Shown here piece after piece: positions 251 through 50,604 of a stretch of DNA of 64,000 nt (the first letter of the stretch is position 1; every line of letters starts with the position of its first letter). The stretch is taken from NCBI RefSeq assembly GCF_019649055.1, contig NW_026570293.1:434001-498000 (forward strand), given 5' to 3'. A program made the position numbers and the translations under genes. The stretch is from Paramacrobiotus metropolitanus (lineage: Eukaryota; Tardigrada; Eutardigrada; Parachela; Macrobiotidae). The notes beneath the pieces are model-generated. The model saw nothing but the letters and a program-made list of their open reading frames with translations. It was not told the origin of the DNA and did no database searches.

Positions 251-3200
251 TCACGTCTTAGCAGCACGCTTCCGCGGCTTCTCATCCGTATCTTCACGGT
301 TCCGCGGCTTTCCACTCCGGCCGCCGCTGTGCACCTGGTTGCGATGGCGCTCCAGTTTCCATCTGGAGTGGAAGCTCTTCCCGCACAGCGGACAGGGATG
401 CTGGTGGACTGTGCCGATCCCGTGTTTGAGCATGTGCATGCCGAGGGCGTAGCGGTTGCGCTTAACATCGCCGCAGACACTGCAGGCGCACACCGCCTTG
501 GCGTTGTGCAAGCGGCGGTTGTGCCGGCTGAGGCTCAGGTAGGTGTCGAAGGTCTTGGGACAGTGCGGACACAGGAAGCCCTCGTCCTGTCGGTGCATCA
601 CTGCGTGATACCCCAACTGCGGCCAGGAGGGGAAGAGTTGGGCGCAGTACAGGCAGCGCTTGGCGCGGTGATGCTGCAAAGCATCGAAATGAATTCAAGA
701 ATTTTTTTAGATTTTAGACGGCGAAAGAGTTTTTTAGACAGCGGTTATCTATCCAAATGCAACGGGGAAACGCGATATGTGTTATGGGTACAATCCCCGA
801 GCAGGATAGCATCGAAGAAGTGTTTTTGTTATAAAACTCGTTTTTTCTAGTACTCAGTTTGTACTTCCATAACGATACTTATTAAAGGCATCAGAATTTT
901 TTTAAGTTTATTTCTAGAATTAGAAAAAAGATTGTCCCTAAATCTTTTTCGGCTCAGACCGGTCTTCATAGTCGACCGAAGCGAAGGTCTTCTATGTTCA
1001 CGAAAACGGGATTTTTGTCGGTCACGTACAAATTTTTGTAAAATTAATATGATTAATTTTATTTCGTAAATTTTATTTGGATTATTTTGTATTGTAATAC
1101 AAAACTAAAACATATTTGAAAATGTAATTTTTTGAATTGTAATAAATTTGACTGCGACGTTTCATCACAGAGGCAACCATAAGTCGGCTGTCCGTGGTGA
1201 TCTCAGCGAGGGAGGGTAGTCAGATGAAGTCCTGTCTGTGGAGGAAATTCCGAAAAATGGCGATGGAGCGGAATCGAACCGCTGGCTACCGAGTGAGATC
1301 CACGTAGCACAGCCACTGTGCCATCGCCGCTGTTGGCGAAGATCAAGATATTTGTGCTTGAGCTTGAGCCAACCAGGTAGGGCAGCTGCTGTGGGTAAAG
1401 AGGATTCTCCTCTTACAGTTTGAACGATCAAATTATCGTCGGGCTTCGCTTGGGTCTTCTAGTGGTAGATTATTATTGCCTTATTATCTTGTTTTTTTTA
1501 AAGAATAAATAAAACCATGATTTCTATGCATTTAAAACAAAAAATTCTCCTTTTTCTAAAATTCCACTGTTGCGAAAGTTTTTTCGCATATTATTTTTCC
1601 CATTTGTTTTACCAACCATTTCATGGGCAGTCAGCTGTTTCTGCGACGCATACTCCTTTTGACACTCTCCGCACGTAAACTTCCCAACCGGATCCGCGGA
1701 CTTCTCGGGATGCACGTTCCGCAAATGCTGCCCCATAAACTTCACGCTGACATACAGCTCACAATAGGCGCACTTCTCCCGCGGGCGGTAGGTCTTGCGG
1801 TGCTTCTCCACATGGGCGATCAGCGCGGCCATCGTTCCGCACTCCTCCTGACACCCCGGACACGCGGTGGCGCCGCCCTCTTCCACGGCGGCGGCGTCAT
1901 GGCCCCGCGTGTGCAACGCCAACAACGCCGCCGACTCGAAGGAGAACATACACGCCGTGCACACATGCAGCCCCTCCGTCGCCGGCTTCGTCCGCTGCGC
2001 GACGGAATTAGACATCCGGAACGCACGCTGCACGAACCTGGCACCGTTGTCCTTCAATTCAGCGACCTTCTGCAAGACCTCCAAGTACTCCATCAACGAG
2101 TCCGCGCCGGTTGTCGGATCACACTGCTCCAGGAGTTTCGGGAGCTGCTCGAGACGGCTGTTGACGCGGACCTCTAATTTCCGTCCCTCCGTCTTTCGGC
2201 GACCTCCTGACTTCATCGGTGATGCATCCTTCGTACCAATCTGCAGATTCTGCACCGCTTGATCGAACGCTTTATACCGCGCGTTGTACATTTTATACTG
2301 GTACGGATTCACTTCAACCACGGCTTTCAACTCTTCAATCGCTTCTTGTCGCCGGCTTCCCAATTTCCCCAATCTGACGTCGGTGACCCTGTTTTTCTTC
2401 ATGTCAGTGAGGGTGTTTAGGAGTTCCATGTAGCGCTGGAACACCGGTCCGGCGGCGTCGTTGAAACGCAGTTGTGCGTCCGCTGCTTGCGCCAAACAAA
2501 AATGCACGAAGGTTTTCAGAGCGCCGCGGGTATTGCCCACGGCCTCCGGGCCCAGGAGACGCACGACGCTGTCGAAGGCGGCGTTGCGGTGGTTGCCGGG
2601 AGCGTACTGGTACGGGTTGACCTGGACCACCGCTTCCAGGCGTTTCACCGCTTCCGGGTTATCGTGACGGAAGCGGAAGGGACGTTTGCGCTTTTCTGCA
2701 GTAAAATAACGAAACCGTTACACGCACCGTGAAACAGATTATAAGAACAGGATGAATCAACAGTTGGCTTAATTTTCACACGGGGTAAAGGGAGAATAAA
2801 CGACTCGTGCGAATTAACGCCGATTTCCAAAGATTTTGGCTGTTTTTTTCCAATGATGCATTTAAATCATTTAAATTACTGTCTACCAGCGCAAATCAAC
2901 GCACAGGCTAATCAACGCTTTATACGCTTCCTATAATTGACAATACATTTCAGTATTTACTTTCTCACCAAACAACGAGCGGACCAGAATTACACTGTGC
3001 GACAAAAAGGACATGCTTCGCTGTAACGCATAATACGCACACAAGCGCTTTTTTTTCGAATCCGATGCTGCCAATTTGTAACCGCTGTATGGGTTTCTTC
3101 TGCACACGTATTTATTAATTTAACTAATGAAATTTTCTGAACCGTAGACAGTACTCTATTTTTTTATTCTACAGGGTGCCAAAACCTTACTGCGGGGTAT

Positions 3201-4910
3201 CGCTGTGGAAACTGCGGGATCATTCCCTCCATCGCCAGCATCCACTGCCGATGGCATTTCCGCTTCCCCATCTTCTTCTTCTGAGGCGGTTTCCTCTTCC
3301 GAATCACCAGCGTCTCTTTCGCTGTCCGTATCGTCGCTGTCTTCTTCGTTTATTGCCTCCGCGTGTGACGTCAAATCTTCACGTGCCGGTAAACGATCAA
3401 CAGCGTCGGCTGGCGTAATATGTTCGTCCGACGGAAAGGAATCAGGCAAACCGGACGCGGGGACCAGATCATCAACATACGCTGTTGGCCGCGCTATCTT
3501 CATGTTTTTACGATGGCGAACTACGAAATCCACGACAATAAAAAAACAATTGCAGCAACGGAAGACAAACAGCCACTAAATCACCAAATAAATCGAAATA
3601 TTACAACTACTCGTAGCACATAGGGTGAAGTTCACTGAAAGATTTCCTGGGGATATGGGGAGAGGGCTGAACGTTTACGGGCTGGGCTACTCGAAAATAA
3701 ATCAACCAATCAATCACTATCACTCACCAGGCTTCTTATTACTAATCTCCTGCAGACGTCCCGAGATTCCCAAGGCCCTGGCGTAATTAAACGAATACCA
3801 GACTTTCAGTTCTTCCCCCGCTGCAATGTCCCTTTTTGTCGCGAAGTACACCTGTCCGTCGACGTTGTAGGCGGTGAGATTGCATTCAGCGGTGTGGATG
3901 GCCAGTCGGACGAATTGCATCCAGTTGCAGCCGTGAGGGGAGTCCGCGTGGAAGCGCAGGATGCCCTGCAGCGTGGGACGGTCCGGAATGCCGAAGGAAG
4001 ACTGTTGCAGCTTGGCGTGCGGACACAGGACGCCGCGCATCGGTCCGAAGACCGTGCGGGCGGGAAAACTACACTGCGCGCGGACTCCGCAAGGTAACTC
4101 TGTATGTAATACGATCGCAGTTGACGCACAGCCAGAACATCATTGACGGCAGATAAAACAAGGAGGCTTGATAAGAGACATGAAATCAGAAAAGTCGAAA
4201 ATTTTGCAATACACACACCAATCATCACTAAATGAAGATTAGACTTAGTACTTATGGAACAATATAAATAAACGAGAATCGAGAGAATACAAAAAAAATA
4301 AAATACATCTCTTCCAGGATTGATTAAGAATATTCTGTGGGATTCATTGTCCGTTGTCTTACCGTCTTCTGGTGTGCGGATGAAGGAGAAGGACGAAGGG
4401 AGCGTGGCCAGCGCCAAGGGTATCACCTCCGCGTCGGGCACAGAATGTGAATGCAACGGACACGGCTCATCCAGCACATTCCGCGAGCAGTGCCCGCAGC
4501 CACCGTGCGAAGGAGTATTTTCTTTATTTACTGATGGTCGCCCTAAAACAGTCCCCAAGGCTTACAATTCGACTAACAACTTACGGAGAAAAGCGCTCCT
4601 AAAAATTCACGCTTCAGCGTCTATTTTAATGGCAGTAGAAAAAAGATGAGGAAGATAAACATGACCACCAAAGTGAATATAATTCATAGAAATTTAGGAA
4701 ATCCATTTAGGAATTTAGCCACAACCTCCCATGCGAGCCATCTGGCGTGCTCGTACTTCTTTGGGGTTTACCTCCCAAACTCAGCGAAGATGATGTGGGC
4801 AGCAGAGATTTGGCCGCCGCCTTGCTGGAGACCCGTTGGACTGCAGCAGGAGCGCGGGCTGCGGGAGATGCAGAACGTGATGAAACATGGAGGGAAGCGT
4901 TGGGTTCCAT
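251..4910 (-). CDS. PRDM-type PR/SET and C2H2 zinc-finger protein, copy 1
   Basis: Probable nuclear chromatin or DNA-binding protein. Inferred minus-strand exons are 4910-4772, 4542-4363, 4099-3728, 3520-3191, 2695-1617 and 673-251; phases close to about 840 residues. Exon 2 encodes a pre-SET zinc knuckle (CGHC, then CPLHSH), as in some vertebrate PRDM proteins. Exon 3 is a PR/SET domain (CNWMQFVRLA, GEELKVWYSFNYARALGI). Exon 5 opens with KRKR, carries two NPYQY-type repeats and C2H2 fingers; exon 6 has four more. Two oddities: the codon aligned with the initiator ATG of copies 2 and 3 is ACG (4967-4965), with no in-frame ATG between it and an upstream stop, so I start at the conserved internal ATG at 4910. 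The basic run ending exon 1 in the other copies is also missing, because the donor (GTAAAC) lies earlier. It could be functional with a shorter N-terminus or a decaying copy. Family assignment is firm; the start is uncertain. Confidence 0.75.
733..789 (+). mobile_element. Retroelement C-terminal tail remnant (RQRLSIQMQRGNA motif)
   Basis: In one plus frame this short stretch reads RQRLSIQMQRGNAICVMGT. The same signature ends the better preserved fragments at 40020-40548 and 42731-43045. No coding continuation is seen on either side, so it is a short relic lying inside an intron of the PRDM-type gene. Confidence 0.55.
1258..1328 (-). tRNA. tRNA-like sequence, probably a pseudogene or SINE head
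   Basis: On the minus strand there is a perfect 7-bp acceptor stem (GGCGATG with CATCGCC), a D-arm-like hairpin containing an A-box match (TGGCACAGTGG), and a perfect 5-bp T-arm with the B-box GGTTCGATTCC. The region between the D and T arms does not form a standard anticodon arm: the best 17-nt fold pairs only three of five positions and lacks U33. I therefore call it a tRNA-derived relic rather than a working tRNA gene. It lies inside an intron of PRDM-type copy 1, on the same strand as that gene. Confidence 0.45.
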
Positions 4911-5609
4911 CGGGATCGCAGCAGGCAACTCATAGAAAGAGCCACTCGCCACTTCGCTCTTCTCCGTCTGGCAGTTTAACTCCAGCAAAGACACGAAGCT
5001 CAAACTGATTATTTATCATGTCAAAATCAATTTCAAATAAGAAATTATGATTACGTACAAATTACAATCTTAGAAATGCTAAAATTTTTATTTCGCTTAC
5101 GCTCGTACACACTGACAAACACTGTAAAGGCTGTAAGGCTTGACAAACTGCACAGGAAGTGGTTCAGCTGGACCACTGTAACAGACTGCCCGCGGGCGGT
5201 TACACCTTACACGAATGCTGGATGTTTGCTGTTGTCGTAACAGTCGTCTTCTTCAACTTTTTCCAAATGTTCATGTTTCGTTCAGCAACTGCAAAAGCCC
5301 GAAGCTGATATTCATAGAAAAAAATTTACGCTGGATAATTCAAATGTTACAAGTTTAAAACTTTAAAGAAAGAAATCGAAACTGCTATTCGTGGTAAACA
5401 ACGTTGCCAGCCGTTGCAAGCCACCTGCATGCTGCCGGTTAGCCGGATGTGCGCGTGTGTGATGGCGCATGCCAGCCAGACGACGCAACAGAATGACGCC
5501 AGTCGCGTGGATCACTGATTCTCACCATTCCTAGTTTACCTAATTCACAGCTGCTTATGCGTTGTCATGTTTACAATTTTACATGTTTCTGAGTGAGAAC
5601 CGATGAGAA
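4911..5609. other. Upstream region of PRDM-type copy 1
   Basis: Holds the sequence aligned with the N-terminal codons of the paralogues (to 4967) and then non-coding DNA up to the left inverted repeat of the 4.4-kb element. No convincing gene is seen. A promoter for copy 1 would be expected here but no motif can be singled out. Confidence 0.4.
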
Positions 5610-5734
5610 CTAGAAGAAAACGGACCTTATATAAACACAAAATGGCGACGGCTTACGTCATAAACTGGAGTTGGGAGCTGGACTTTCTAGTTACAATTCC
5701 CGGTTGCACTTTATAACTACAGCTCCCAACTCCC
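5610..5734 (+). repeat. Left inverted repeat of the 4.4-kb element
   Basis: Pairs with 9920-10043 on the opposite strand with only a few mismatches. The arm contains a TATA-like box followed by an ATG (AAAATGGCG); the left copy opens a 24-codon ORF, but the reading frame differs in the right copy. The arm may therefore carry a promoter, but that is inference. Confidence 0.7.
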
Positions 5735-5951
5735 ATACATGAGTCATCACAACTGTACACTGTATATATTCGCTACATATGCAGTACTAACATCCGCACA
5801 CAATTCGATGATATTATCAGTGCACAAAATTTTAATTTTTGGTTGTATTATATGATCGGTTGTCTGGATTGTGTTTTCAGTTTAAAGTAAGTATTAAAGG
5901 CACGAAATCATAATAAATCATCATACATAAGCAAGAAAATATACTATCAAA

Positions 5952-6393
5952 ATGGCACGCCTAGTGTGTAAAAAGAACTTTTGTGAAGCAGTTATGGGAA
6001 CATGCATTGTTCTAATGTTAATTTTAATAATATTGCTCGAGGCCTTTTTCGGAGTAAGTCATAATATGAAAACCGGTACCAACAACTGTTCAGCACTGAC
6101 AGTTGAAGATTTAATCAACGGAAATGTCACCCCATGGTCGAGTGTTAAATTCCGTGTCGACAATTCGACGCTTGTAATATGTAAGTCGAAACCGTTTATT
6201 TATTTCTTTTGCGGAAACCTCCAATTTACGCTTATTCCGCGTAATGTTAAACGGATAGTTCACGGTTATATCATTTGGCTGGTCTAGCGGTGCCAGGCTT
6301 TCTAATAGCATTTCCTTCAGGCTTTCGAGGTTCAACTGTCTCCTGGCTTTCTTTGTTAAGGTATAGCATCCCCGAAACTATGTACACATAAAA
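5952..6393 (+). CDS. Possible small signal-anchor protein inside the 4.4-kb element
   Basis: An ATG at 5952 opens a reading frame with a strongly hydrophobic segment (residues about 15-35, rich in Leu, Ile, Val) followed by an acidic stretch with NCS and NST glycosylation sites. A good donor (GTAAGTC) sits at 6180, and an acceptor (TTCCTTCAG) at about 6321-6329 would join a short terminal exon ending near 6393. The protein would be about 95 residues with one membrane segment. It resembles no family I recognise. An overlapping minus-strand ORF (6335-6111) is an alternative, so this call is weak. Confidence 0.3.
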
Positions 6394-6904
6394 AATATAC
6401 CATGTGTTACAACACAATATGAACTAAAAACATCAGCTTCACTTACTTCGTGTACAAGAAATTCATAATTTCTGCAGCTAGCGGAGTAATTGTTAATAGA
6501 AATGCACCTTTAGCTCCAGTGGAAAAAAAATTTGCGGCGACCCTGGCGGACTTTTTCCAGTTGATCTGCACGCACGCATAAGCATGCACGCAATAGACCA
6601 TAAGACTGCAAATAACTGTCAAAATTGGTTACACAGTATGGTCATAATGTACAGTGATAAAGAAAATAATATTCCATCGTAGCGGTTAGTTTTTATGATT
6701 ATTTATGAATAAATAAGCTGAGAATAGAGGAAATAGTAATGACCACTAAAAAGCAATTATATTTTATTCACTGTACGTTGAAAGGCTTTGACGAGCCTGA
6801 TGCGTTAAAGTGCTCCTCCATAGTGTAAAAGAATGTAAACAACTTGTTGAATCAAACAGTGAAAGTGAACCAATATAACTGTGCAGTGTACAGTAGTATC
6901 CATA

Positions 6905-6962
6905 CGAGGACCATTGGGTGCTGTGAACATACCCTTCACGATTAGGCTGCGATGAACATCCG
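6905..6962 (+). repeat. Left terminal inverted repeat of the Tigger-like element
   Basis: The 58-bp arm is the reverse complement of 9358-9415 except for about two bases. It directly abuts a TA dinucleotide. Confidence 0.9.
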
Positions 6963-7175
6963 ACTAGTCTGCAGCTCGCAACACTACTGGCATCACGGTC
7001 TGAATTTTAAAATTAAATCCAAGTTTAAAACGCACAACATCCAGTACGAGTACATATTTGTTTATTTCTTGTTATGTTCTATTTTTGATTTGTTGTAATG
7101 ATGTTTGTTTTACTTTTTTTCTAATAAATCTGATTTGTTACGTGTACTAAATCCAACTGTCCAAAAATATCAGCT

Positions 7176-9139
7176 ATGGATCTAGTCTCTAGAGCTTGTC
7201 ATAATGCTGCTATGGATGCAGCAGTCAAGTCATGTCAGGAGGGAATTTTATCGCAGGCTTCTGCCGCAAAGGTCTACAGAGTTAATCGCACGACACTAGG
7301 AAGACGACTGAAAGGAATTGTGCCTCAACAGAATGGGCAATGGCAGCGGATATTTACTGATCCTGAGGAGAACTTCATTGCGGACACCATGCTGCGCTGT
7401 GCAAGGCTTGGAGTGCCTCTAAATAAACCGATGTTAAAACGGATTATTCCTCCACTGTTGAGAGAAAAAGGTAAAACGCTTTAAAATAATGCTTTTGGCG
7501 CCGATAAAATTGCAGTATCGTAAAGAAAAAAAATTCCGTTATTTGGCTCTTGTTCACGCATCACACGTTTGTAGGTTTTGCCGTCGAGAAACAACGTTTT
7601 ACGGAGGATTGGCACTATGGCTTTTTAAAGCGTCACCCAGAAATTAAACAGCGCATTTCTCACAGTGCAAACCGGAAAAAATCACGTGAATGGACCGTAA
7701 AAAACCGCCAAGGATGGCTTAAGAAGCTGAGCGAGCTGCACATGAGCGGATACCTGGAGGACCCTCGCGGTGTCTGGAATTTTGATGAGTCTGCATTTCA
7801 AGTGGCAGAGCGAGTTACTTCGGTTTATGCAAGAAAAGGGACAAAAGATGTACTCTCTTATTTTGATGGTAACGACAGAGAGCTGGTTACTGTTCTGGCT
7901 GGCGGAAACGCTGCGGGAGAGATTATGAGACCGTTAATTCTGTTCGATGGCAAGGTGATGATGGCTTCTCGACTGGACGGAACCGATGATCGCTGTTATG
8001 TCGGGGTTAACAATTCAGGGATTATGGACACGGAGACATTTGTTAATTACCTTCGACGCGTAGTCATTCCTGCCATGACAGCGGAAAAGGTAATTCAGAA
8101 ACATCACGGTAATAAAAGAACTCACAAGCATAAACATTATTATACAACTAATAATAATGACGTTATTTAGTATTATTATTATAAGACCCATAATAGTTAA
8201 ATTGATTATTTTTAATTTCTGCGTAGCCAATGGCACAGTGCAGATAAATAAATAAGTATTAAAATTATCATTTGTAGAACGTTATCTTCTTGGATGGCCA
8301 TAGTTCCCATATGCTGAACGATGAATTCATTCACGAGTGTTTGATGTCGGAAAAAGATATTACCGTAGTGATTTTTCCCTCTGGACAGACTGATAAACTG
8401 CAGCCCATGGACATTAAAGTTTTCGGGCCAGTTAAGAAGTACTGGCGGGATTACTTGCGACTGCAGCCACTCTTATTGGACGAAGCGGTAAAAACTTTAA
8501 CATTTAGTGGTAATGTGCCCGTGAGTATAATTTCCATTTAAAATACAGATATCCAAGCAGAATTTTGCGAAACACTTGATGGCAAAATGGAACGATTTCA
8601 ACATGCCGTCAAATATAATTTCCGGTTTCAAAGCATCGGGGATTTTTCCATATAATCCAGAGAACGTGTGTCGCGCTGTGGATGAGCCCACCAATGATGT
8701 AAACCCCGAAACATTACAGCAGGACCAACCTGAACTGTTAACCTTTCGCGAAGTTTATGCAAACGAATTGATGGAACTCAAACAGTTTGTTCGCGTGAAA
8801 TTTCATGCGCCTAATTCTACGGCTGAAGAAATCGCAGAAATCCTTGTTGATAAGATGGAAGGGTTTAAGCCAACTGTGGCGCCTGGTAACATTGCCCAAG
8901 GATTTTTCGACCGTCTGACAGAGCTCCACCCTCGAAAGGAAAAAAGACCCACTGACCAACGTTTGCGGATGGATAGCGGAGCGATTATCACGAGCTCAGA
9001 GTTTCAGAAAGCGCGTGCCGAACATCAGCAAAAACGCCAGAAAGTTCCACAGAAATCTAATGGCCGTGCTGTGTTGGGCAATCTTACGAATACGCCAACA
9101 AAAGTTACCAAACGGACTTTCAAAAAACGCAAAATTTAA
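7176..9139 (+). CDS. Tigger/pogo-type transposase, DDE superfamily endonuclease
   Basis: Catalyses cut-and-paste transposition into TA sites. Exons 7176-7470, 7575-8089, 8278-8520 and 8549-9139 have matching phases and give 547 residues. An N-terminal helix-turn-helix of pipsqueak type lies at about residues 5-50 (ILSQASAAKVYRVNRTTLGRRL), followed by a CENP-B-like DNA-binding region (FLKRHPEIKQRIS). The DDE_1 catalytic domain shows three acidic sites: D in WNFDES, D in FLDGHSSH and D in KLQPMDIKVF. The basic C-terminus suits nuclear localisation. No stop or frameshift is seen, so the enzyme may be active or only recently silenced. Length fits pogo/Tigger transposases (about 450-600 residues). 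Confidence 0.88.
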
Positions 9140-9357
9140 CTGAAAACGTATTATGTGCAAATTTTTGTGTTGTACTCGTTCGGGCTAATAATAGGTATTT
9201 TGTTCTGTGACTTGAAATTGTGAAGCACTATGATCTTCTAAAATGTGGTTTGAAGATCCAATAATTTTTTTCTGAACCGTAATTTGTCGAAATAGACGGT
9301 AAAAACAGTTTAGAATAACATTTTTACCAAAATAAAATTTTCTGTAAAGTCAGTTCC

Positions 9358-9415
9358 CGGGTGTTCATCGCAGCCTAAACGTGAAGGGTATGTTCACAGC
9401 ACCCAATGGTCCTCG
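9358..9415 (-). repeat. Right terminal inverted repeat of the Tigger-like element
   Basis: Partner of 6905-6962, followed by the TA target duplication at 9416-9417. Confidence 0.9.
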
Positions 9416-9584
9416 TACAGTACACTGGGCACATGTCGAGTTTCACAGTTATATCCAAGTCGTGCACAATCCAGATAAGCAATTAAACTACTCGGTAAGT
9501 TGGCAAATAATTATGTATATTACAAGTGCACAGCATTACTACAAGTGTTTTCAATAATTAAGAGACGCGCATGGTGTGTAGCAC

Positions 9585-9825
9585 CATAGCTGACGAGCTA
9601 GCTGCGCTAATGTGCCAGTGCCGCTGCATGCGGTAAAAGAATGTAAACAACCACTTGCACGCGTGCAACACGGCTGCACAGGTAGCTGCATCTGGGCTGC
9701 GAGCCTCCTTGAGGTTTGCACAGCATGTGTATCAGTGATACACTGGCTGGCTATCGCTGACGAGCCAGCTGAGCTAATGTGCTAGTGCCGCTCCATGCGG
9801 TAAAAGAATGTAAACAACTTGTGTG
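9585..9825 (+). repeat. Tandem subterminal repeats of the 4.4-kb element
   Basis: Two copies, about 165 bp apart, of a segment reading GCTGACGAGC, then AGCTAATGTGC, then GCGGTAAAAGAATGTAAAC. A third, diverged copy lies at about 6790-6850 at the other end. Subterminal repeats often bind the mobilising transposase; that role is inferred. Confidence 0.6.
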
Positions 9826-9919
9826 TGTGAATATCAGTAAGTGAGTAAATTAGGTAGTGTACTTCTATACAGTGTACATATGCAGTAATCATATGCTGCA
9901 GTTGTGCTGAATCATATGC

Positions 9920-10043
9920 TGCAGTTGGGAGCTGCAAGTACAATGTACAACCGGGAATTGTAACTAGAAAGTCCAGCTCCCAACTCCAGTTTATGACGTA
10001 ACCGACGCCATTTTGTGTTTATATAAGGTCCGTTTTCTTCTAG
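9920..10043 (-). repeat. Right inverted repeat of the 4.4-kb element
   Basis: Reverse complement of 5610-5734 with few differences, including the TATATAAA box. Confidence 0.7.
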
Positions 10044-11133
10044 AACTGTTACAATGGTGCACGTAAGGAATGTGGCTACATTATTGTGATCAGTACGAGA
10101 ATGTTCGTTGGATCTGTACGCGAAGGATACGTGATTTCTGTCGGTCATATTTAATCGCTTGTTAATGCTTTACACAATATCATTACTTTACATCGAATCT
10201 GGAGTTCAGTCTGTTATCCGTTAATCATTAAAAACGTTAACATCCAGTTATCGCGCAGTGCACGGTTACGAGTCTAACAACGTGAGAAGGCATAGCGCTA
10301 CTACGGTGAATCAAAATTTTGATTCACCGGAGTAATACTACTCCTTCTCACGTATGTACTGTACTCTTTCCATTATGCCCGTGACGAGCGGCTGCGACTA
10401 CCGTAAAAATATAGTCGTCAACCGTAAAAATATACTCGTAGTCATTCACTGTCATTGGGTCTCCGTAAATCTTGGTCCGAATCTTATCACGGCACTTGGA
10501 TGCGGCGAAGGAGATTGCGCCTTTTCAATTTTTGGAGTTTTAACCACCAGAAAATTAAAGCCTTAAAATGGCTTTTTCTTTGGTGGATACAACTCCACGT
10601 TCGTTATCATTCGGTGGACAGCGCCAAGAAACAGCCTAGTAAGTAACTGAAGTTGCATAAGGCGGGGATGTGTTTCCCGGTCTCATCATTCCTTTGGTTA
10701 GCCGGATACAACAAGTATGTAAAGGTCACTGAACGACCACACCGACCAGTCTGGTTTTTCCGAAAATTTAGCGAGGATACAGCTTTTGGCTGTTTTGGAT
10801 GCTTAAATACAGTATCAGCGATGAATCTGTCTACTTTAAATAAGTATCCACGCTAGCACTTGCTGTTATTTTGACGGATTGCCGAATAAAAATCAAGTAT
10901 AGTACATACAGTACTGGTACTACTGTACTACGTGTCCCTCGCTTGTTGGCAAATTCATTCAATTATTTTCATAGAACAAAACAAATCCTCCTGTAACGGC
11001 TTAATACAAAACAAATCACAATGCGTCGTGAACGAAGAACCCAAAAAACCTGGAACGGAAGTTATTCGAATGCTGAAAATGATAAACCACCACCCTCACT
11101 ATGCATTCAAACGCCTCGAAGTACATCGCAAAT
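10044..11133. other. Gene-poor spacer with a perfect-core palindrome
   Basis: Between the 4.4-kb element and the 3' end of PRDM-type copy 2. It holds the palindrome at 10281-10352; short ORFs here show no family features. The 3' UTR of copy 2 should lie at the upper end. Confidence 0.4.
10281..10352. repeat. 72-bp interrupted palindrome
   Basis: The centre CGGTGAATCAAAATTTTGATTCACCG is a perfect 26-bp palindrome (10304-10329). The outer ends CGTGAGAAGG and CCTTCTCACG also pair, with mismatched segments between. It could be a transposon footprint, a tiny foldback element or a cruciform. Confidence 0.7.
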
Positions 11134-14100
11134 TTACGGCCTCCGGTCGTCGACGGCTGCCCGGCTTCTCGAATTTTCCCGCAAACCGCTGCTGTGTTTC
11201 TGGTGGCGATGACGTCCCAGATTCCATTTGGTCTGGAAGCCCTTCCCGCACAGCTCACACGGATATATAAGCGGAACCGTACCGGAATGGTGCTGGAGCG
11301 TGTGCTGCCGCAAGGCGCCATGGTTCCGCTTCACGACGCCACAGATACTGCACACACACACCGCTTTGGCGTCGTGCTGGCCGCGGCAATGCCGGCTCAG
11401 GATGAGGTACGTGGCGAAGATTTTCGGGCAGTGCGGGCACGGAAAACCCTCCGCCTGTTTGTGCTGCATCGCGTGCTGACCCAGTTCCACCCAGGAAGGG
11501 CACAACTGGGCGCAGTACAGGCAGCTCTTGGACCGGTGTTGCTGCAATGCCAAAGATGTAAGAATAAATTCTCTAATTAAACCAAAGGCACTATAACGTC
11601 TGCGTTGCTACCCATTAAAAAATTTGGTAACTTTATAATAATCTCGTGTACAGGCTGGTAAAAAAAAATAATGATTGTCATGTAATCAAATTTTGAAACG
11701 TTTCCCTTATCGAACAACACGCCCAGTACCATGTTTCCGGGGTCCGGGACGCTTATCGATATCGTGAAAATGTCCGCAAATGCGAACAACGTCGAAGTAT
11801 ATTTTATACGACTTTAAACTGAAAATTCTCCTTTACTACACAAACTTGTACCGAAACAACCTTTTATTACGTGATTTCTTTTACGGTACTAACCAGTTTG
11901 TGGGCAGCCAACTGTTTCTCCGCGCCAAACTCTTTCTGACACACTCCGCAGGTGAATTTCCCAGCCGGATCCGCGGACTTCTCGGGATGCTTGATCCTCA
12001 CATGCTGCTCCAAGAACTTCACATCCACATACAGCCCACAATCCGAGCACGGCTGTCGCGGGCGGTAAGCCTTGCGGTGATTCTCCACATGGGCAATCAC
12101 CGCCGTCATCGATCCGCACTCCTCCTGACACCCCGGACACGTGGTGTCCCCGCCCTCCTCCACGGCGGCGGCGTCATGGCCCCGCGTGTGCAACGCCAAC
12201 AACGCCGCCGACTCGAAGGAAAACATACACGCCGTGCACGCGTGCACCCCCTCCGACACCGGTCTCCTCCGTTTTACGAAACAGGACACCGGAGCCGAAC
12301 GCCGCACCGACCTATCCCCGTTGTCCATTAAACCGGCGATTTTTTGCAACACTTCCACATATTCCTTCAACGACGCAGGGGCGTTAGCCGGATCGTACTG
12401 TTCCAGAAGCTGTGGTAGCTGCTCGAGACGTCTTTTAACGCGCTTTTCCAACGCCCGTCCTTCGTATTTCAATTTTGTCACTGACAGCGTCGTCTTGGAA
12501 TACCGCTGCACGGCGGAAACGAAGGCCTTCTCCCTGGAGTCGACGGTATCGTACTGATACGGATTGATTTCCACGACGGCATTCAACTGCCCGCTTGCGT
12601 CCTGTCGACGGCACTGAGCCCGTGAGTCGGTCACTCTGTTTCGCCGCAAACTGGTGAGGGTGTTCAGCAGTGCCATGTAGCGCTGGAACACCGGTCCGGC
12701 GGCGTCGCTGAATTGGTGCGCGGCTTCCGCTGTCATGTTCAAGCAGCGATCAACGAAAGCTTTCAGATTGCTACGGGCGGTTCCCGTGCATTCCTCGCCG
12801 AGGAGGCGCAGGACGGTGTCCCAAGCGTCGCTGCGTTTTTTCCCCGGCGTGAATTGATATGGATTCACCTGGATGACGGCTTCCAGACGGGCCACCGCTT
12901 CGGGGTTGTCGTGGCGGAAGCGGCCGATACGTTTGCGCTTTCCTGAAGCAAAGTAAGGTACACATCAAAACTTACGTTTTTCACGGACGAAAGCGTAAGA
13001 AAACATTAGAAAATATAGAAAACATTGGAAAACATAAGACAGCTTCATCAAATCAACTCACTCTGTGGTATTTCATCGGGAACCGCGTCACTATCCGCTG
13101 CACAGTCATCGCCGTCGTCGAGCTCCGTCGGCATATCGCATCCCCGGGTCTCCGCCGTTTTTTCCAGCTGGACCATCTCCCCGTCAAGAGACGCTGTAGG
13201 CGACAGTTCCGCTTCATCTTTGTCCCATACACTCGCCGCGACTGTTTCGTCGTGTTCTGTCACGTCCGTGCTAGTGGCTGTACCATCGTTTTCGTTTCCT
13301 ATCCGTTCGTGAAGCGATAGATCCCTGCTGGCCGATTGGAGCAGATCGAGTGCGACGGACGCGATATTTTCGTAGAGCTGACACGAGTCGGGCAAACCAT
13401 GCGCAACTACGAGATCATCGCGGTACGATCTCGACAGAATTTTGTCGCCCTTGTTCTTACGACAGCGAACTGAAAGCGGAAAAACATCATATCGCGAAAT
13501 CACAAACAGCTAGGCTCCTATAAAATATGTTGAAATTATCACGAAAAAATAAAAATCGAAACAAATATGATAGATGCATAAAAATAAGTTAAATATTTTC
13601 GTTGGCTGTGACACGTACCGGTATTATTACCGCTCTCCCGTAAGCAACCCGAGATTCTCATTGCTTTGGCGTAATTGACCGAATACCAGACGGTCAGCTC
13701 TTCCCCCGCCACAATGTCCCTCTTTGTGGCGAAGTACACCTGCCCGTCGACGTTGTAGGCAGTGATATTGCATTCGGCGGTGTGGATGGCCAGTCGGACG
13801 AAGTGCATCCAGTTGCAGCCATGAGGGGATTCCGCGTGGAAACGCAGGATACCGTGCAGCGTGGGACGGTCCGGGATGCCGAAGAGGGGCGGCTGCAGCT
13901 TGGCGTGGGGCACAGCACGCCATGCATCGGTCCGAAGACCGTGCGGGAGGGAAAGTTACTCTCTGCGCGGATACCACAAGGTGCAGCTGCAAATGCCATT
14001 GCAATTTAATACAAACATCCCAAAATGTGACAAAAAAAAAACGAAAAAGCGCACGGTTAATAACAAAAATATCGAGAAAAATAAAGTAAATATTTGAAAT

Positions 14101-14855
14101 AACTGGATAGGAATGGCAAAGCCAATCGGAACTTAAATAAAGCCTTTCAGATCTCTTACGATCTTACCATCAGCCTGTGCGCGAATGAAGGAAAGCGACG
14201 CGGGAAGCGTGGCCAGCGCCAAGGGTAGCACCTCGGTGTCGGGTACAGAATGCGAATGCAACGGACACGGTTCATCCAGCACATCGCGCAGGCAGTGCAT
14301 GCATGCATTGCTTGACGGCTTATTCCCGTTATTTATTGGTCGACAAACTAAAATAATCCTTCAAAAAAATAAATCAAGGCTAATAAGTACTTAATAACCA
14401 AGGTAGTGCAGGCTGTAGGGGCACTCGCAGGTACTAGATAATAATAATTACTATTATTGTACATGCGAAAAACGTAGAAGTACTTACTTCGTAATTGTCG
14501 TATTCATATAGTCATACTTAGTCGTACATCAGAATAATATTATCTATTTATAATGGCAATAAATTATAAAATTACAAAAATCAATAACATGCATGATACA
14601 TTGATGCGCTGCGACTGATACTGAAAACACAGACACTGTACCTCTTTCACGTTTCTTGCCCAAACCCGACGTTGATGATGTGGACCGCCGGGATTTGACC
14701 GCAGACGTCCTGGAGACGCGCTGGGCTGGAGAGTGGACTGCGGGAGATGCATCCCGTTTGCACGAAGCCTGCAGCGACGCGTTGAATTCCATCGCATCGG
14801 CTGCAGGAGTTAACAGCTGATAGAAGGAGCTGTCCGCCACTTCGCTATCCTCCAT
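11134..14855 (-). pseudogene. PRDM-type PR/SET and C2H2 zinc-finger gene, copy 2, frameshifted
   Basis: Same architecture as copy 3. Exons are 14855-14642, 14347-14168, 13986-13619, 13469-13062, 12942-11894 and 11541-11134, all with good GT/AG borders. It starts MEDSEVADSS, has the pre-SET knuckle (CMHC, CPLHSH), a PR/SET exon, an acidic linker, RKRKR, two NPYQ repeats and eight C2H2 fingers. The PR/SET exon is 368 nt against 372 nt in the other two copies: one codon shorter plus a single missing base where the paralogues read CPHAK (13905-13912). That shifts the frame and destroys the SET fold. All other exons are open; restoring one base would give about 875 residues. Either a young pseudogene or an assembly error; an internal start could still yield a zinc-finger-only product. 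Confidence 0.75.
11725..11801 (+). repeat. TA-flanked MITE end in an intron of PRDM-type copy 2
   Basis: The reverse strand reads CTTCGACGTTGTTCGCATTTG, then GGACATTTTC, followed by the GTCCCGGACC motif. This is the terminal sequence shared with copies at 17280-17352, 18117-18405, 30175-30826 and 34959-35128. It abuts TA. The other end is not recognised, so this may be a truncated copy. Confidence 0.5.
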
Positions 14856-15590
14856 GGCTAAACCGGCAATTCACGCCAGTACACGACATGCAAATCACTC
14901 GAAACAATCAAAATTTCAAACCCTTACGATACGGTATGTACAACAACAACAAAGTTAGCAGAAAATTATTTTTACTGAAACTCCAGAAACAGAAACTGAT
15001 CGCATTGCAGGCCATGAAAGCTGCACCGGAAACGGGCCAGCGAAATGATTGTACCTGCCAGCTGATGGGTGGCTGCCGCTGTTGACTACTGACAGCGTAG
15101 CCTGTTACCGACTGTCCTGCAGCTTCTACTCATGCTGTTTAATGTTAGAAGTACGTATGAACAGTTACTGCATCTGCATACAACAGAAACTTGGGAAGCA
15201 GGCGAGCCACCCCGGGCCTGTGTTTTCCCGCCCGTTCCCATCCCGAGCCGGAGGTTTCCCTCTACCGCTCTCCGTGAAAAAGCGGGAGCATGGCATTTTG
15301 CAGAATGCAGACTTTTCCCAATTTAACCGAGCCAGTAAAATTCCGGGCCGGCATTGACTCATTGGTGACCGCCCATGGGCTGTCAGTTACCATTTTCAAA
15401 ATTTCGCCACTGGAAAAACAGTGATACTACTCTTGAGTCTTGACTTTTGGCAGTTTTTCGATGTCTTTGTAATTTGTTTATCTCAAAATTGAATTACTTA
15501 AATTGCAGAATTAATTTTGCATTGAAGTTCGCCTTCAGATCAGGTGCGCTGATGTGAACCTGTCAGTTTTCAAGCTCTCAATTATCAGCC
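14856..15590. promoter_or_regulatory. Divergent promoter region between PRDM-type copies 2 and 3
   Basis: The 735 bp separating two head-to-head start codons must contain both promoters and 5' UTRs. There is no clear TATA box close to either start. A GC-rich tract lies at about 15200-15360 in an otherwise AT-rich setting. The shared-promoter role follows from geometry only. Confidence 0.45.
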
Positions 15591-18500
15591 ATGGAGAAGA
15601 GCGAATTGGCGAACAGCTCTTTCTATCTGCTGCTGATGCCTGCTGCGAATACGATGGAACCCAACGTCGATCCGCATTTGCCACCACGTTCTGCATCTCC
15701 CGCCGTCGGCGCTGCTGTTGACGCTCAGCAGGCTTCCAGCACGTCTGCAGCCAAATACTCCGAGCCAGCAGCGACAGCATCACTGGGTGTCGGCAGAAAA
15801 CGGAAAAGAGGTATGCTTAGCATGAATAGCATCTAATTCTAGATCCATCATTGGGAAATCCGTTCATTCCTTCTGCCCGCTCGAATTTGCTGTAGAGTGT
15901 AAAATTTACACTGTAAACACTGGTCTACTCTGTACGTGTTGTTCTGGCGTTTAGAAATTAATTTTGAGCTGTTGAATTTATTATTAATTTCGAGTTATAA
16001 TTTCCATTTTCCTGATGCGAGTAGTTTTCGTCGCAGGTGTGATGTATCAGGTACCTACAGGCTAGATGTGAGTTACTAAATTTAATTTTTGATGATTGTT
16101 TTAGGGCACCACTCTGTAAATAACGAAAACAGCCCGTCGAACGGTGGCTGCGTGCACTGCCTGCGCGATGTGCTGGAGGAGCCGTGTCCGTTGCATTCGC
16201 ATTCTGTGCCCGACACCGAAGTCCTTCCCTTGGCGCTGGCCACGCTCCCTTCGTCGCTTTCCTTCCTTCGCGCGACGCCTGATGGTAAGACAGTACTGAC
16301 TACTGAGTACTAAGACCGCGGGGGTGCTAAGACTGCGGACTAATCAGGAATTAGGTTTGTAAATTACTTAATTGCATTTTTCTTCAATTTTTACCTGTGT
16401 ATCCCTTTATTTTGGATTTATCTGTGTTATTTTAGTCGAGATTTATTATTATTTTTCTGAGATTACTGATCACTATTATTTATTATTATGATTTATTTGT
16501 TTTCTAAATTATTTAGTATTTTCATTTAATATTACTATTTTTTTCCTCTTTTACTTGCTTAAGTTGATTGATATTTTATTTATACAGATAATTATTTAGA
16601 TATTTCCTTGTTTAGATATTTTGGTTTTCTGTCCTTTTTTGCGTTCTGCGTGTAAGTTGTGATGGTGTTGCAGCTTTACCTTGCGGTGTCCGCACACAGA
16701 GCAACCTTCCCGCGCGGACGGTCTTCGGGCCGATGCGCGGCGTAATGTGTCCGCACGCGAAGCGGCGACCGCCGTTTTTCGGCATTCCTGACGGCTCGGC
16801 GCTGCACGGTATGCAGTACTTCCACACGGAATCTCTGAACGGCTGCAACTGGATGCTCTTCGTCCAGCTGGCCTTCAACTCTGCCGAGCACAATCTCACC
16901 GCGTACACTGTGGATGGGCAAGTGTACTTTGCTACGACAAGGGACATTATGGCCGGAGAAGAGCTCAAGATTCGGTATTCCGCCAGTTACGCCAAAGCCA
17001 TGAGCGTCACCGGTTGTCTGCGGGAGATCAGCAATGTTCAGCCGGGTACGTGTTACAGCCAACGAATTAAATTTTTCATTTCATGTACTCATAAATTTGA
17101 TGTGTGTCGTTTGCTCTCGGTACTTCGGCTTCTCGGTATTCTCTGTGTTGTTCCACATAACAAAAACTTTTAATCAACTTACCTAAAATTAGCATTAGCA
17201 TTTTTTTATACAAGCTTGTGTGCTGTGCTGAGACTGATAAAAAATTATCAAGTTTTCTAATGTGGACCGACGGAATACCATTGTTTCGGGGGTCCGGCAC
17301 GCAAATCCATATCGGGAAAATATCTAGAATGCGAAAAACGTCGAAGTATGGAATTAATTATTTTTTGTTATGTTTAGTTCGCCGTGAAACGGCCCGTGAT
17401 AGGAATTTCACCAACACAGCACAACTGGAATCGTATTGTGAAGGTCTCGGAGGGAAGTCCGGTTTGCCGGAATCGTTTCCGTTAGACAGTGATATCATGA
17501 TGACAGACGGTTTTCCCTGTCTGCCAGTGGTACCGAGCAGTTGTACGCTGCAGGAAGAGGAAAGAGAGAACGACGACGCCGGCAATATGAGCACGGCAAA
17601 CCAGCCGACATTGGCTAGTGATGCTGAGGAGGCCGTGAACGATAGCGGTAAAAATTATTTACTGTTTTTGATTTGTCGGTTAACTGCATTATTATGTGGG
17701 TAGGTTTAATTTAGTTTTATCATTACATAATTTTGAAATTGAAGTATACGATATCGACATCTTCTGCACGCTTTGTAATTTATCTTTTTGAAAAACATAA
17801 GTGGAATAGTCGTAGAGAATTGTTGTAGGAGAAAAAAAATGAACGGAATAATTGATTTGTCTGACTGTATGTATACAGACGAAGAAGAACTGGAAAGGTC
17901 ATCTGTGGGTGGGGATGCGTCACAAGCCAGTCCAGTGGCAGAGACGAGCGGTGATAGCATGCCGACGGCACTGCTGGATGCTGGTGAAGGCGACGAAGCG
18001 GATACTAACGCGGTGTCCCACACAGTGCGACGAAGTGAGTCATTAATGTAACTTTAAAAGACCAGCAAGGCGTTGCTGCCTTCGGTTTTTTCGTATATAT
18101 TTGTGTTAATTTCGGTAATTCGACGTTTATCGCAATCCGGACATTTTCGCAATAAAGTAGGGATTCGCATACCGTACACCGGAGACACGATATGTAACAC
18201 ACCCACCTCCGCGTTGTTGCACATGACAGAAACATCGAAAATTGATCATGTGTACAGATATATTGGTGTTCCTATCAACTTGTACACGAGAATCGAGATT
18301 AATTAAAAATATATCAAGTTTCTAATGCGGAACTCCACAGAGAATACTCCGTTGTCCCGTACGCCAACCCATACTGCGAAAACATCCAGAATTCGGAATG
18401 TCCAAAATTCCCGCCAGAATATTAATAATAAGAGCACTAAGCGTCGCCGGGCATAGCATTTTTATCACTAATTCTTTTATTATCATCGTGTTACATTGTT

Positions 18501-20656
18501 GCAGAAAAGCGTAAACGTCCGCCCCGCTTTCGTCCCGAAACCTGCAATCCCGAAGCGGTGGCGCGCTTAGAGGCTATAATCCAGGTGAATCCGTATCAGT
18601 ACGGTCCAGGGAAGCAGCGCCACGCCGCCCTGGACGCCGTCGTGGACCTGCTCAACGAAACAAGCGCGGGTAACACCCGTAGCTCTCTCAAATCCTTCAT
18701 CCGCGACTGCTTACTCACGGCGCCAGAAGCGGTGGAGCATTTCAGCGATACTGCCGAACCGGAGATGCAGCGCTATTTGGTGCTTGTGAAGACCCTCACA
18801 GACTTGCGGAAAGGCAAAGTGATGGACTGGAGGCGCGAGGGCGCTGTTGCCCAACTGGAAGCCGTTGTGAAATTCAATCCCTTCCAGTACGATCTGCTCG
18901 CCCCGCGAATGAAAGCCTTCGTGGCGGCGCTGCAGTCATACACGACCAAGCCACTATCCCCGGCTAAGCTCAAACACGAAGCACGGAAGTTAGAAATCCG
19001 CGTCAAACGGCGTATTGATCACCTGCCGAAGCTAATGAAACAGTACAATCCGACCACCGCCCAGGATTCCTTGAAGGAGTATGTGACAGTGTTGGAGAAG
19101 CTAGTGGAACTGAGGAACAGCGGCGCGAAAACAGTCCGGCGTTCGGTCAAGGTGTCCAATAAGGTCAGATTGCGGACGAAGCCGGCGACGGAGGGGGTCT
19201 ATGCGTGCACGGGGTGTATGTTTTCCTTCGAGTCGGCGGAGTTGTTGGCGTTGCACACGCGGGGCCATGACGCTGCCGCTGTGGAGGAGGGCGGCGGCAC
19301 CACGTGTCCGGGGTGTCAGGAGGAGTGCGGATCGATGACCGCGCTGATCGCCCATGTGGAAAAGCACCGGAAGGCCTACCGCCCGCGGCGGCAGTGCCCG
19401 CATTGTGGGCTGTATGTCAGTGTGAATTTCTTTGACCGGCACGTCAGGACAACGCATCCCGAGAAGTCAGAGGATCCGACAGCGAAATTTGCGTGTGGAA
19501 CGTGTCAGAAAGAGTTTGTCACACAGAAGCAGTTGTGGAGTCATGAAATGCTGGTTGGTAGTAGGACATCTGGACATTGGTTTGTAAGGATAACAATAGG
19601 ATATTAGCATTTTCAGTTTACGTATCAACGTTTTTTATCTTTACGCAAATCGATTACAGATTCATAATCAGCGGATTTCTCGGATCTAGGAAATGTCAAA
19701 ATTGAAAAGGCCAAAACAGAAGTCTGGATGCCGCCCCCAAGTCCCAACCATAACTGCCTTGGGTGGTGGCACTGTAGTCAAAGACAAAAAAATTTGTTTT
19801 TACATTCTAAGCTCCTTCCTATTCAGCCAGAATTTTGTTTTGATCTTTTTTAATTTTCGTAAGTCTTTTCTAGTTCCGAAAAATCCGCTTGTTCTGGATC
19901 TGCGAATTATTTGCGTTAAATGAAAAAGGTTGATGCGTAAGTATGCGTAAGTTGAAATTGCTAATTTCCTCACGAACCCCATGGACTAATGTCAAAGAAA
20001 TGCATCAAAGTTTTTCCTGCATTGACATGCAGCAGAAGTTAAAAGAGACGTGACCCGCTGCATGGTGCCATATTCGGGAACATATACGAAAACTTTCATT
20101 TTTGCGTGTTGTCAAACACTATTTTCAATCGTTTTATTGCATTTCTGTAGCCGAATAATTTGTAAACGTTGGTGTGAAAACCGTTTGTGCGCGCAGTATC
20201 CTGTGGAGAAGTTATGGTTAAAATTAGATTCCGAAAAGGTTAAACTTTCCTGAATCCTGTTTTGCGTTGCAGCAACACCGCACCAAGCACTGCCTGTTCT
20301 GCGCCCAAGTGTTCCCCAACTATATCCAGCTGGGTGAGCACGTGGCGCAGCACCAGCTGCCGGAGGGTTTCCTCTGTCCGCACTGCCCCAAGACCTATGA
20401 CAGCTACACCGTCCTCACCCGCCACCACCGCCGTCTGCACAACCCCAAAGCGGTGTGCGTGTGCAGCGTCTGCGGCGTCATCAAGCTGAATCGCGACGCC
20501 CTGCGCTCCCACATGGTCTCTCACGGGGTCACGGCGCGCCAGCATCCGTGTCCGCTGTGCGGGAAGACCTTCCCGACCAATGCCAGACTGCAGTGCCATC
20601 GGGACCAGGTGCACAGCGGTGCACCGCGGAAACGAAGGGCGAAGAAAGTGAATTGA
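15591..20656 (+). CDS. PRDM-type PR/SET and C2H2 zinc-finger protein, copy 3, intact
   Basis: Probable nuclear histone methyltransferase-like transcription factor. Exons 15591-15810, 16105-16284, 16674-17045, 17378-17647, 17879-18034, 18505-19553 and 20273-20656 total 2,631 nt in frame, giving 876 residues. Order: N-terminal tail ending GRKRKRG (1-74); pre-SET zinc knuckle CVHC and CPLHSH (about 83-100); PR/SET domain (134-257: ARTVFGPMRG, CNWMLFVQLAF, GEELKIRYSASYAKAM); acidic linker (258-399); KKRKR; two NPYQY/NPFQY repeats (about 420-600); four fingers (CTGC, CPGC, CPHC, CGTC) and four more in the last exon (CLFC, CPHC, CSVC, CPLC). Finger 4 is completed across the last intron. Pre-SET plus PR/SET plus C2H2 resembles PRDM4/9/11/15; the NPYQY module is not one I recognise. 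Methyltransferase activity is inferred only. Confidence 0.85.
17205..17352 (+). repeat. MITE fragment in intron 3 of PRDM-type copy 3
   Basis: Contains the family internal motif (AAGCTTGT, then TTATCAAGTTTTCTAATG), the GGGGTCCGGCACGC box and the terminal AAAAACGTCGAAG followed by TA. Aligns with the copies at 30690-30826 and 18230-18405. Confidence 0.55.
18117..18405 (+). repeat. MITE copy with both ends, in an intron of PRDM-type copy 3
   Basis: The left end (ATTCGACGTTTATCGCAATCC, then GGACATTTTCGC) and the right end (GCGAAAACATCC, then GAATTCGGAATGTCC) form diverged inverted repeats about 65 bp long around the internal motif TATCAAGTTTCTAATGCGG. Length about 290 bp; no coding capacity. 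Confidence 0.5.
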
Positions 20657-32874: not shown

Positions 32875-33834
32875 CTATTTCCAAAATGTCCAAGGGGCCC
32901 CAGGTTGGACCATCATGCAGTATCGGTCACAGTAGGGGGTGGTGGTGGGCTTCAGAGTGGGCGGCCGGACTGTGACCGGCGGTTTCGGTGTTGGCGGCGG
33001 CGGGCAAATTGACACCGGCTGGCAGCCATTGGTGGCGGTGCGAACTTTTCCTGGCAGGCACACGCATCCGGGTTTGCAGGAGGCGGGACATTTGGGATTG
33101 CGGTTGCTGCAGGTCGGGTCGCATAAGGCACATTTGCCGCGTGTTTCACCGCAAGGGCAGCCCACACGGAGGGATTCCTCCCATTCGGGACAGAAAGGCT
33201 GAGAGAACGGGGGTACCATGCTGTTGAATAACTGGGAAAGCGTCTGCGTCGCGCTGAAAAGATTAAGGAGTTCGTACTGGGAAACGCAGTGAACGAAGTA
33301 TGAAGTAACTGCTAGTTTGTTGTTGAATTTCTCCTCGATGGTGTCTGACAAAATAAGTGACTAACTTGTGAATACATTGAAGTTATATTTTAGCGGCCGT
33401 CGTAAGGAATGCCGCCACTTTACTCTTGACTTGTGGTGTGACACACAATGAAACATCTTAGTGTGTTGTCACTGTGAAATCCTTAAAGTGCAGGGATAAT
33501 TGACTACGTAGTTTTCTTAATTAAACGTTTGTTAATTGAATAGCCACCTTAGCTTGCTGAAGCTTTACTTTATTCTTAACGAAATACTGCTGGAACGGCA
33601 GGACTAGCAAAATGCAAAACGTACTTACGCCCGGCCTGTCGTTGGCATCCCGGCGGTTTGGGTGCGGTTTCCGACTGATTCGGTGCGATTATTGGCGGAT
33701 GCGGTACGGTTCAGCTCGCCGATGATGCCTTCCGCTGGCTTCGCAACGGAAGCGGTACGGTTCTGCGCGTTAGCGATGCCACCAAGTAAGATCACCGCGC
33801 TGCCGATGACAGCGATCGCTACTGTGGATTCCAT
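32875..33834 (-). CDS. TIL-domain secreted protein, copy 3
   Basis: Secreted cysteine-rich protein, probably a protease inhibitor type by its TIL domain. Exons 33834-33629 and 33253-32875 join in phase 2 and give 194 residues. Signal peptide MESTVAIAVIGSAVILLGG (cleavage near NAQ), an Asn-Arg-Thr-rich spacer (NRTASANNRTESVGNRTQ), a linker, then the TIL domain (VGCPCGETRGKCALC to CQPVSICPP). A Pro/Thr-rich segment follows (KPPVTVRPPTLKPTTT), then a short Cys pair PYCDRYCMMVQPG. The start is chosen at the conserved MEST signal peptide rather than the in-frame upstream extension. The final motif is shared exactly with copy 4 and may be a distinct structural tag. Confidence 0.85.
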
Positions 33835-49635: not shown

Positions 49636-50604
49636 TCAGAACCAGCCAGTCAGCCAGCCAGGTTGAACCATCATGCAGTATCGGTCACAGTAAGGGGTGG
49701 TGGTGGGGGGCATCGGCATATTGGGCGGCTTGACTGGGACCGGCGGCTTGATCGGTGGTGGCGGGGGCGGCGGCGGCGGGCAAGTTGACACCGGATCGCA
49801 GCCGTTAGCGGTGCGAACGTATCCTCCCATGCATGCGCATCCGGGTGTGCAGACCGCGGGACATCTGGGATTTCGGTTGCTGCAGGTCATGTCGCAAAAG
49901 GCACACTGGACGCGAATTTCACCACATTTGCAGCCCACTTTGAAGGCTGCGGAGCACTGAGCTAACATGGGTGTTATAACTGGCCGGTATAGGCTGAAAT
50001 GATTTGAAGTTCGTATTGGAAACGCAATTCATGAAGTACGAAGTGACTCTTATCAAAATTAATCAGTTCTCTATCATATCTGGCAAATACTAACAGGTGA
50101 ACCAATGATGTTGGACTCGTATTTAGCAGTTACCCAAGGAAATACGACGCCCTCTTTTCTAACCTGGAGGTTACTCGGTATAGAAACTGAACATTGGCAA
50201 AATTCTTAAAGCGCAATGACACATTCAATAATTGAAAGGCTGCACTTATTCTTGAAACAATACCTTCTGTACTGTATTTGTAACGAAATGCAAGTGCGAA
50301 CTAGCTCAATGCGTGCTTACCGGTCTTCGGTTTCCGTTTGCTTCCCGGCGGATTCGGTACGGTTTCCGACGGATTCGGTACGATTTCCGGTGGATTCGGT
50401 ACGGTTTACGACGGATTCGGTACGGTTTCCAACGGATTCGGGGCGATTACCGGTGCGTTTTGATGGAGATCCGGTACGGTTCTGCAGGTTAATGACGCCT
50501 TCCGCTGGCTTTGCAGTGGATGCGGTACGGTTCTGCGCATCAGCGGTGCCACTGAGCAAGATCACCGCGCTGCCGATGACAGCGATCGCTATTGCAAATC
50601 CCAT
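49636..50604 (-). CDS. TIL-domain secreted protein, copy 4
   Basis: Secreted cysteine-rich protein, probably inhibitor-type. Exons 50604-50321 and 49993-49636 join in phase 2 to give 213 residues. Signal peptide MGFAIAIAVIGSAVILLSG. Then the longest Asn-Arg-Thr region of the family, with about seven NRT(E/A/G)S units arranged with period 6-7 residues and dense N-glycosylation sites. The TIL domain runs from VGCKCGEIRVQCAFC to CDPVSTCPP. A proline tract (eight or more consecutive Pro) with Lys/Val-Pro repeats follows, ending in the family tag PYCDRYCMMVQPG. It lies 16 kb from copy 3. Repeat number in exon 1 varies between copies, suggesting slippage. Confidence 0.85.

Follow-up and report, generated by a model that had tools for sequence, protein, structure and literature searches.

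What is the segment that three neighbouring PRDM-type genes of a tardigrade carry between the PR domain and the zinc fingers? The usual description of a PRDM protein is a PR domain combined with zinc fingers. In Paramacrobiotus metropolitanus, a stretch of 64,000 nucleotides (RefSeq assembly GCF_019649055.1, contig NW_026570293.1, positions 434,001 to 498,000 of the forward strand; hereafter the window) holds three PRDM-type paralogues at positions 251-20656. A sequence-only reading of this DNA had proposed that all three encode an unrecognised, duplicated domain with an NPYQY-type pattern, helical in character and possibly new.

Layout and identity of the gene trio

The genes and the parts that matter here are as follows, with positions counted from the start of the window.

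251-4910, minus strand: copy 1, a PRDM-type gene with 6 coding exons and 840 residues, counted from the first in-frame methionine
11134-14855, minus strand: copy 2, with the same plan as copies 1 and 3
13631-13986, or 13619-13986 with an alternative donor, minus strand: PR exon of copy 2, one base off in frame relative to copies 1 and 3
15591-20656, plus strand: copy 3, an intact PRDM-type gene with 7 coding exons and 876 residues
15591-15810, 16105-16284, 16674-17045, 17378-17647, 17879-18034, 18505-19553 and 20273-20656, plus strand: coding exons of copy 3
16105-17045, plus strand: zinc knuckle and PR domain of copy 3, on exons 2 and 3 with an intron between them
19200-20656, plus strand: C2H2 fingers of copy 3, on two exons whose intron splits one finger

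All introns of copy 3 are GT-AG and its reading frame has no internal stop. The zinc knuckle, PR domain, KRKR, module and C2H2 fingers are all in frame in copies 1 and 3, so the proposal that every copy joins these parts holds for these two and fails for copy 2 as assembled, in which a one-base frame change falls inside the PR domain. The PR exon is 372 nt long in copies 1 and 3; in copy 2 it has 356 or 368 nt, according to the donor used, and either length leaves a remainder of 2 on division by three. This change could reflect a recent loss or an error of assembly. The first ATG of copies 2 and 3 (ATGGAG) reads ACGGAG in copy 1, whose frame has its first methionine at 4910.

The Pfam family PRDM2_PR (PF21549) matches copies 1 and 3 with 81.1 and 76.4 bits (cut-off 27), and PF13894 and PF00096 exceed their cut-offs in the same two copies. 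A strict pattern finds 7 C2H2 fingers C-terminal to the PR domain in each of the three copies, to which one atypical finger can be added by eye in copy 3. A CxxC..CxxH zinc knuckle precedes the PR domain, at residue 62 of copy 1 and residue 89 of copy 3 by pattern, and is also present in the exon 2 translation of copy 2. Among PDB sequences, the N-terminal part of copy 3 has 11 matches, with PRDM4 (3db5, E 3.8e-16) the best and PRDM10 (3ihx, E 1.5e-14) next; with a shorter query the same two lead 14 matches and lie close together (65.0 and 59.3 bits). By pairwise PDB scores, the host protein is probably PRDM4/PRDM10-like. Prdm4 is reported to consist of a long N-terminal region, a zinc knuckle, a PR domain and six fingers (PMC3811882). 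The trio shares with PRDM4 and PRDM10 the PR domain and the C-terminal C2H2 fingers, and with Prdm4 the zinc knuckle before the PR domain; it differs from them in having an acidic linker and a tandem of about 220 residues between PR domain and fingers, and the Prdm4 layout as described has no Myb-like tandem of the kind predicted here (PMC3811882).

The window also contains other features. Between copies 1 and 2 lies a pogo-like DNA transposon (6903-9417) with 60-nt inverted ends that are 97% complementary, carrying a Psq-type helix-turn-helix (39.6 bits) and a DDE_1 piece (37.9 bits). It is flanked by an outer inverted-repeat pair at 5610-10043 (42 nt at 98%, 103 nt at 87%), which suggests, because these repeats enclose it, that the transposon is nested inside another element of about 4.4 kb. 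A search of IMG/VR with the transposon-arm pattern returned no confirmed relative. On the minus strand, two stretches (32875-33360, 22.6 bits; 49636-50028, 17.8 bits) resemble cysteine-rich trypsin-inhibitor-like (TIL) domains, though neither reaches the 24.5 bits that Pfam requires.

A tandem of two related units

The segment from KRKR to the first finger has 231, 221 and 218 residues in copies 1, 2 and 3, each time within one large exon, and consists of two copies of a unit of about 95 residues, called A and B (A1-A3 and B1-B3 by gene copy).

1968-2660, minus strand: module of copy 1 (unit A 2355-2660, unit B 1968-2354)
12245-12907, minus strand: module of copy 2 (unit A 12611-12907, unit B 12245-12610)
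18546-18830, plus strand: unit A of copy 3, residues 414-508, a predicted Myb-type domain
18831-19199, plus strand: unit B of copy 3, residues 509-631, strongly basic, a predicted Myb-type domain (stretch folded: 18831-19130)

The duplication is real. Profiles of units A and B align in hhalign with an E-value of 8.6e-11 (probability 97%), and all nine A/B pairs score above every one of 1000 shuffles (z 8.2-16.4). The pattern NP[YF]Q[YF] occurs six times in the 127,996 six-frame residues of the window, twice in each large exon and always within module units; a unit profile run over 1684 six-frame segments of the window detected just these six units, with 6.6 bits as the next-highest score. In copy 3 the module had been placed at residues 417-600 or so, close to the 414-631 found here. 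The motif that had been written out for both units is looser than stated, with variants that include LEAIIQVNPYQY, LNAVVEINPYQY and NPFQY. Numbered along unit A of copy 1, the residues invariant in all six units are A4, L8, A10, N15, P16, Q18, R25, A28, L48 and Y77.

The module is under purifying selection. Its dN/dS is 0.32-0.35 over the three paralogue pairs (for copy 2, 0.33 with copy 1 and 0.35 with copy 3), which argues that it is translated and constrained, and the large exon has an open frame of 348-359 codons in all three copies. Gene structure, duplication and constraint are shown here. In copy 3 the two units differ sharply in isoelectric point (6.1 for A, 10.1 for B); in copies 1 and 2 both are basic (8.7-9.4).

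The neighbouring first finger block (1617-1967, 11896-12244 and 19200-19553) is more alike between copies at third codon positions (up to 0.93 per 30 codons) than the module or the second finger block. Its dS of 0.32-0.38 compares with 0.97-1.13 in the module and 0.55-0.90 in the second finger block, and this likeness fits gene conversion in the first block.

Searches for named domains and relatives

No significant match to a named domain came out of Pfam or the PDB sequences. In Pfam, nine window queries and three unit-consensus queries gave no family at cut-off for the module, and neither PF10545 (MADF) nor Myb appeared in any row for these queries; PDB sequence searches with the module gave no credible named-domain match. 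Weak Pfam rows (UBN_AB at 17.0 bits, ALIX_LYPXL_bnd at 18.3, RuvB_N, SBDS_C and others) were set aside as below cut-off and inconsistent between copies, and PDB sequence rows with E-values of 0.009-10 (a CTLA-4 binder, eIF3k, TGA factors and others) were attributed to chance, being confined to long helices or dependent on the query. Alignments of the module and of the large exon found no confirmed relative outside the window in IMG/VR, nor did the search of GTDB contigs; these collections cover viruses, bacteria and archaea and are poor in animals, so that absence there says little. In a limited collection of papers, surveyed for PRDM together with tardigrades or with MADF, no description was found of a protein combining a PR domain, a Myb-like tandem and C2H2 fingers.

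Predicted fold of a single unit

Unit B of copy 3 was folded by AlphaFold2 on an alignment of all six units, unit A rows included. The model has a pLDDT of 88.6 and a pTM of 0.77, with the five models spanning pLDDT 87.1-88.6, and consists of four helices (residues 2-15, 23-37, 44-71 and 79-97), bearing out the expectation that the module is helical. The whole two-unit module, folded from three rows, gave nine helices at a pLDDT of 47.3, and because of this poor value it was dropped from the fold search.

At E-values up to 10, Foldseek returned 143 PDB matches to the unit model, and not one of them reached 0.001. Ranks 1-3 are all the DNA-binding domain of Sap1, with probabilities of 0.87-0.95 and E-values of 0.45-1.1 (not significant); they extend across 99-101 columns with TM-scores of 0.64-0.67 by query and 0.59-0.65 by target. 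Among the best 50 of the 143 matches, ranks 4-50 have probabilities of 0.28 or less. A viral fold library gave 140 matches at E-values up to 10, again none at or below 0.001. The Sap1 domain is reported to be a myb-type helix-turn-helix (helices 1-3) followed by a long fourth helix (PMC6053445). This Schizosaccharomyces pombe domain is the nearest PDB fold to the unit model among the matches listed, and would share with it a Myb-type helix-turn-helix and a fourth helix (PMC6053445); it differs in sequence, with 9-10% identity, and belongs to a fungal replication and mating-type protein. Similar folds do not by themselves demonstrate shared ancestry. The unit fold is thus predicted to be Myb-type, at E-values short of significance. 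The label of an unrecognised or new domain stands insofar as Pfam has no family at cut-off and the PDB no credible sequence match; given the Sap1-like model, the fold itself is probably not new.

Comparison with the MADF domain

The MADF domain is a Myb/SANT-like domain found in Adf-1, with conserved tryptophans in helices 2-4. The units resemble it in helix order and in their NPxxY segment, and units B1-B3 align in a MADF-like register, with 'VKFNPFQYD' opposite 'VKLNPVIYD' in Adf1. The queries were Adf1 and a MADF consensus, both of which Pfam recognised as PF10545 (Adf1 at 79 bits). A search with Adf1 turned up no MADF chain among PDB entries and no confirmed relative in IMG/VR.

In pairwise alignments with Adf1, the fraction of shuffles doing as well was 0.036 for B1, 0.006 for B2 and 0.015 for B3, all in register; A1 (0.14) and A3 (0.70) did not stand out from shuffles, and both A1 and A2 have their best alignment outside the expected register. 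For the six-unit profile, the hhalign alignment with Adf1 spans 25 columns (helices 1-2, probability 3.0%) and that with the MADF consensus 44 columns (helices 2-3, probability 1.2%), both in the expected register. Among plain shuffles, 2 of 300 attained the Adf1 score and 1 of 300 the consensus score; among shuffles that preserve residue class (the hydrophobic pattern), the counts were 1 of 250 and 8 of 250. Reversed sequences scored lower (11.0 against 17.9, and 13.8 against 15.3). With hmmsearch and the unit profile, Adf1 reached 6.3 bits, exceeded by at least 15 of 5000 shuffles. Within the aligned helices a tryptophan occurs in A2 alone; the MADF tryptophans are otherwise absent. By these sequence comparisons, the signal is weak and mixed: the units appear MADF-like at most, and membership of MADF is not established.

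On balance, and by a modest preference, we read the segment as a tandem of divergent Myb-type four-helix domains, possibly related to MADF, in a PRDM4/10-like chromatin regulator. It is also quite conceivable, if short of probable, that the segment is a helical interaction domain particular to its lineage, without kinship to Myb or MADF, whose four helices are a coincidence: this would agree with the lack of a significant family match by sequence, with Foldseek E-values of 0.45 or more and with MADF tests so mixed that A1 and A2 leave the register, but it sits poorly with a fold search whose top three hits are one Myb-type domain matched over nearly full length before a clear drop, and with the in-register MADF-like alignments of B1-B3 and of the profile. 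That the segment is a non-functional stretch mistaken for coding sequence, be it a retained intron or an exon in decay, is very improbable: the frame change in the PR exon of copy 2 and the absence from copy 1 of its paralogues' start codon point that way, against a large exon open in all three copies, a module dN/dS of about 0.33 and a confident unit model.

Discussion

If the segment is a Myb-type tandem, an instructive counterpart is Drosophila Mzfp1 (CG1603), whose layout is reported as (C2H2)-MADF1-MADF2-(C2H2)6 (PMC11229372). As reported there, the finger cluster suffices for site-specific binding, activity needs both MADF domains, and recruitment to heterochromatin depends on MADF2 (PMC11229372). 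The isoelectric points are 6.65 for MADF1 and 9.6 for MADF2; its authors favour protein contacts for these domains, and were unable to demonstrate specific DNA binding by MADF2 in vitro (PMC11229372). Mzfp1 and the trio would be alike in placing two tandem Myb/SANT-like domains before a C2H2 cluster, and the acid and base pairing of the Mzfp1 domains is mirrored by copy 3 only, the units of copies 1 and 2 all being basic (PMC11229372). They differ in that the Mzfp1 domains are recognised as MADF, whereas the trio units are not, and the Mzfp1 layout as described lists no PR domain (PMC11229372).

From this analogy we infer a likely molecular role. The gene has three neighbouring copies, and in each the tandem lies between the acidic linker and the C2H2 fingers. 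The fingers would select the site, and the PR domain would serve as a platform for a chromatin modifier or as the modifier itself. The Myb-like pair may then add a second contact, made with chromatin proteins that act as partners, as is favoured for the Mzfp1 pair; alternatively, basic units such as unit B of copy 3 might contact DNA or nucleosomes. As for the origin of the unit, we tentatively entertain, with less than even confidence, that it is the founding member of a new domain family in animals, a quickly evolving Myb-type branch of which a tandem was recruited by a PRDM4/10-like protein.

The analysis indicates that aligning internal repeats as one family can assign a likely fold to a domain that has no Pfam name. 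With a Myb-like tandem between the PR domain and the fingers, the architecture would be new. Such a layout would parallel the MADF pair of Mzfp1 and suggest that further chromatin-binding parts can be added to PRDM proteins. If this holds true, PRDM would gain a second, structurally distinct chromatin-binding module, in a combination new to the PRDM family.
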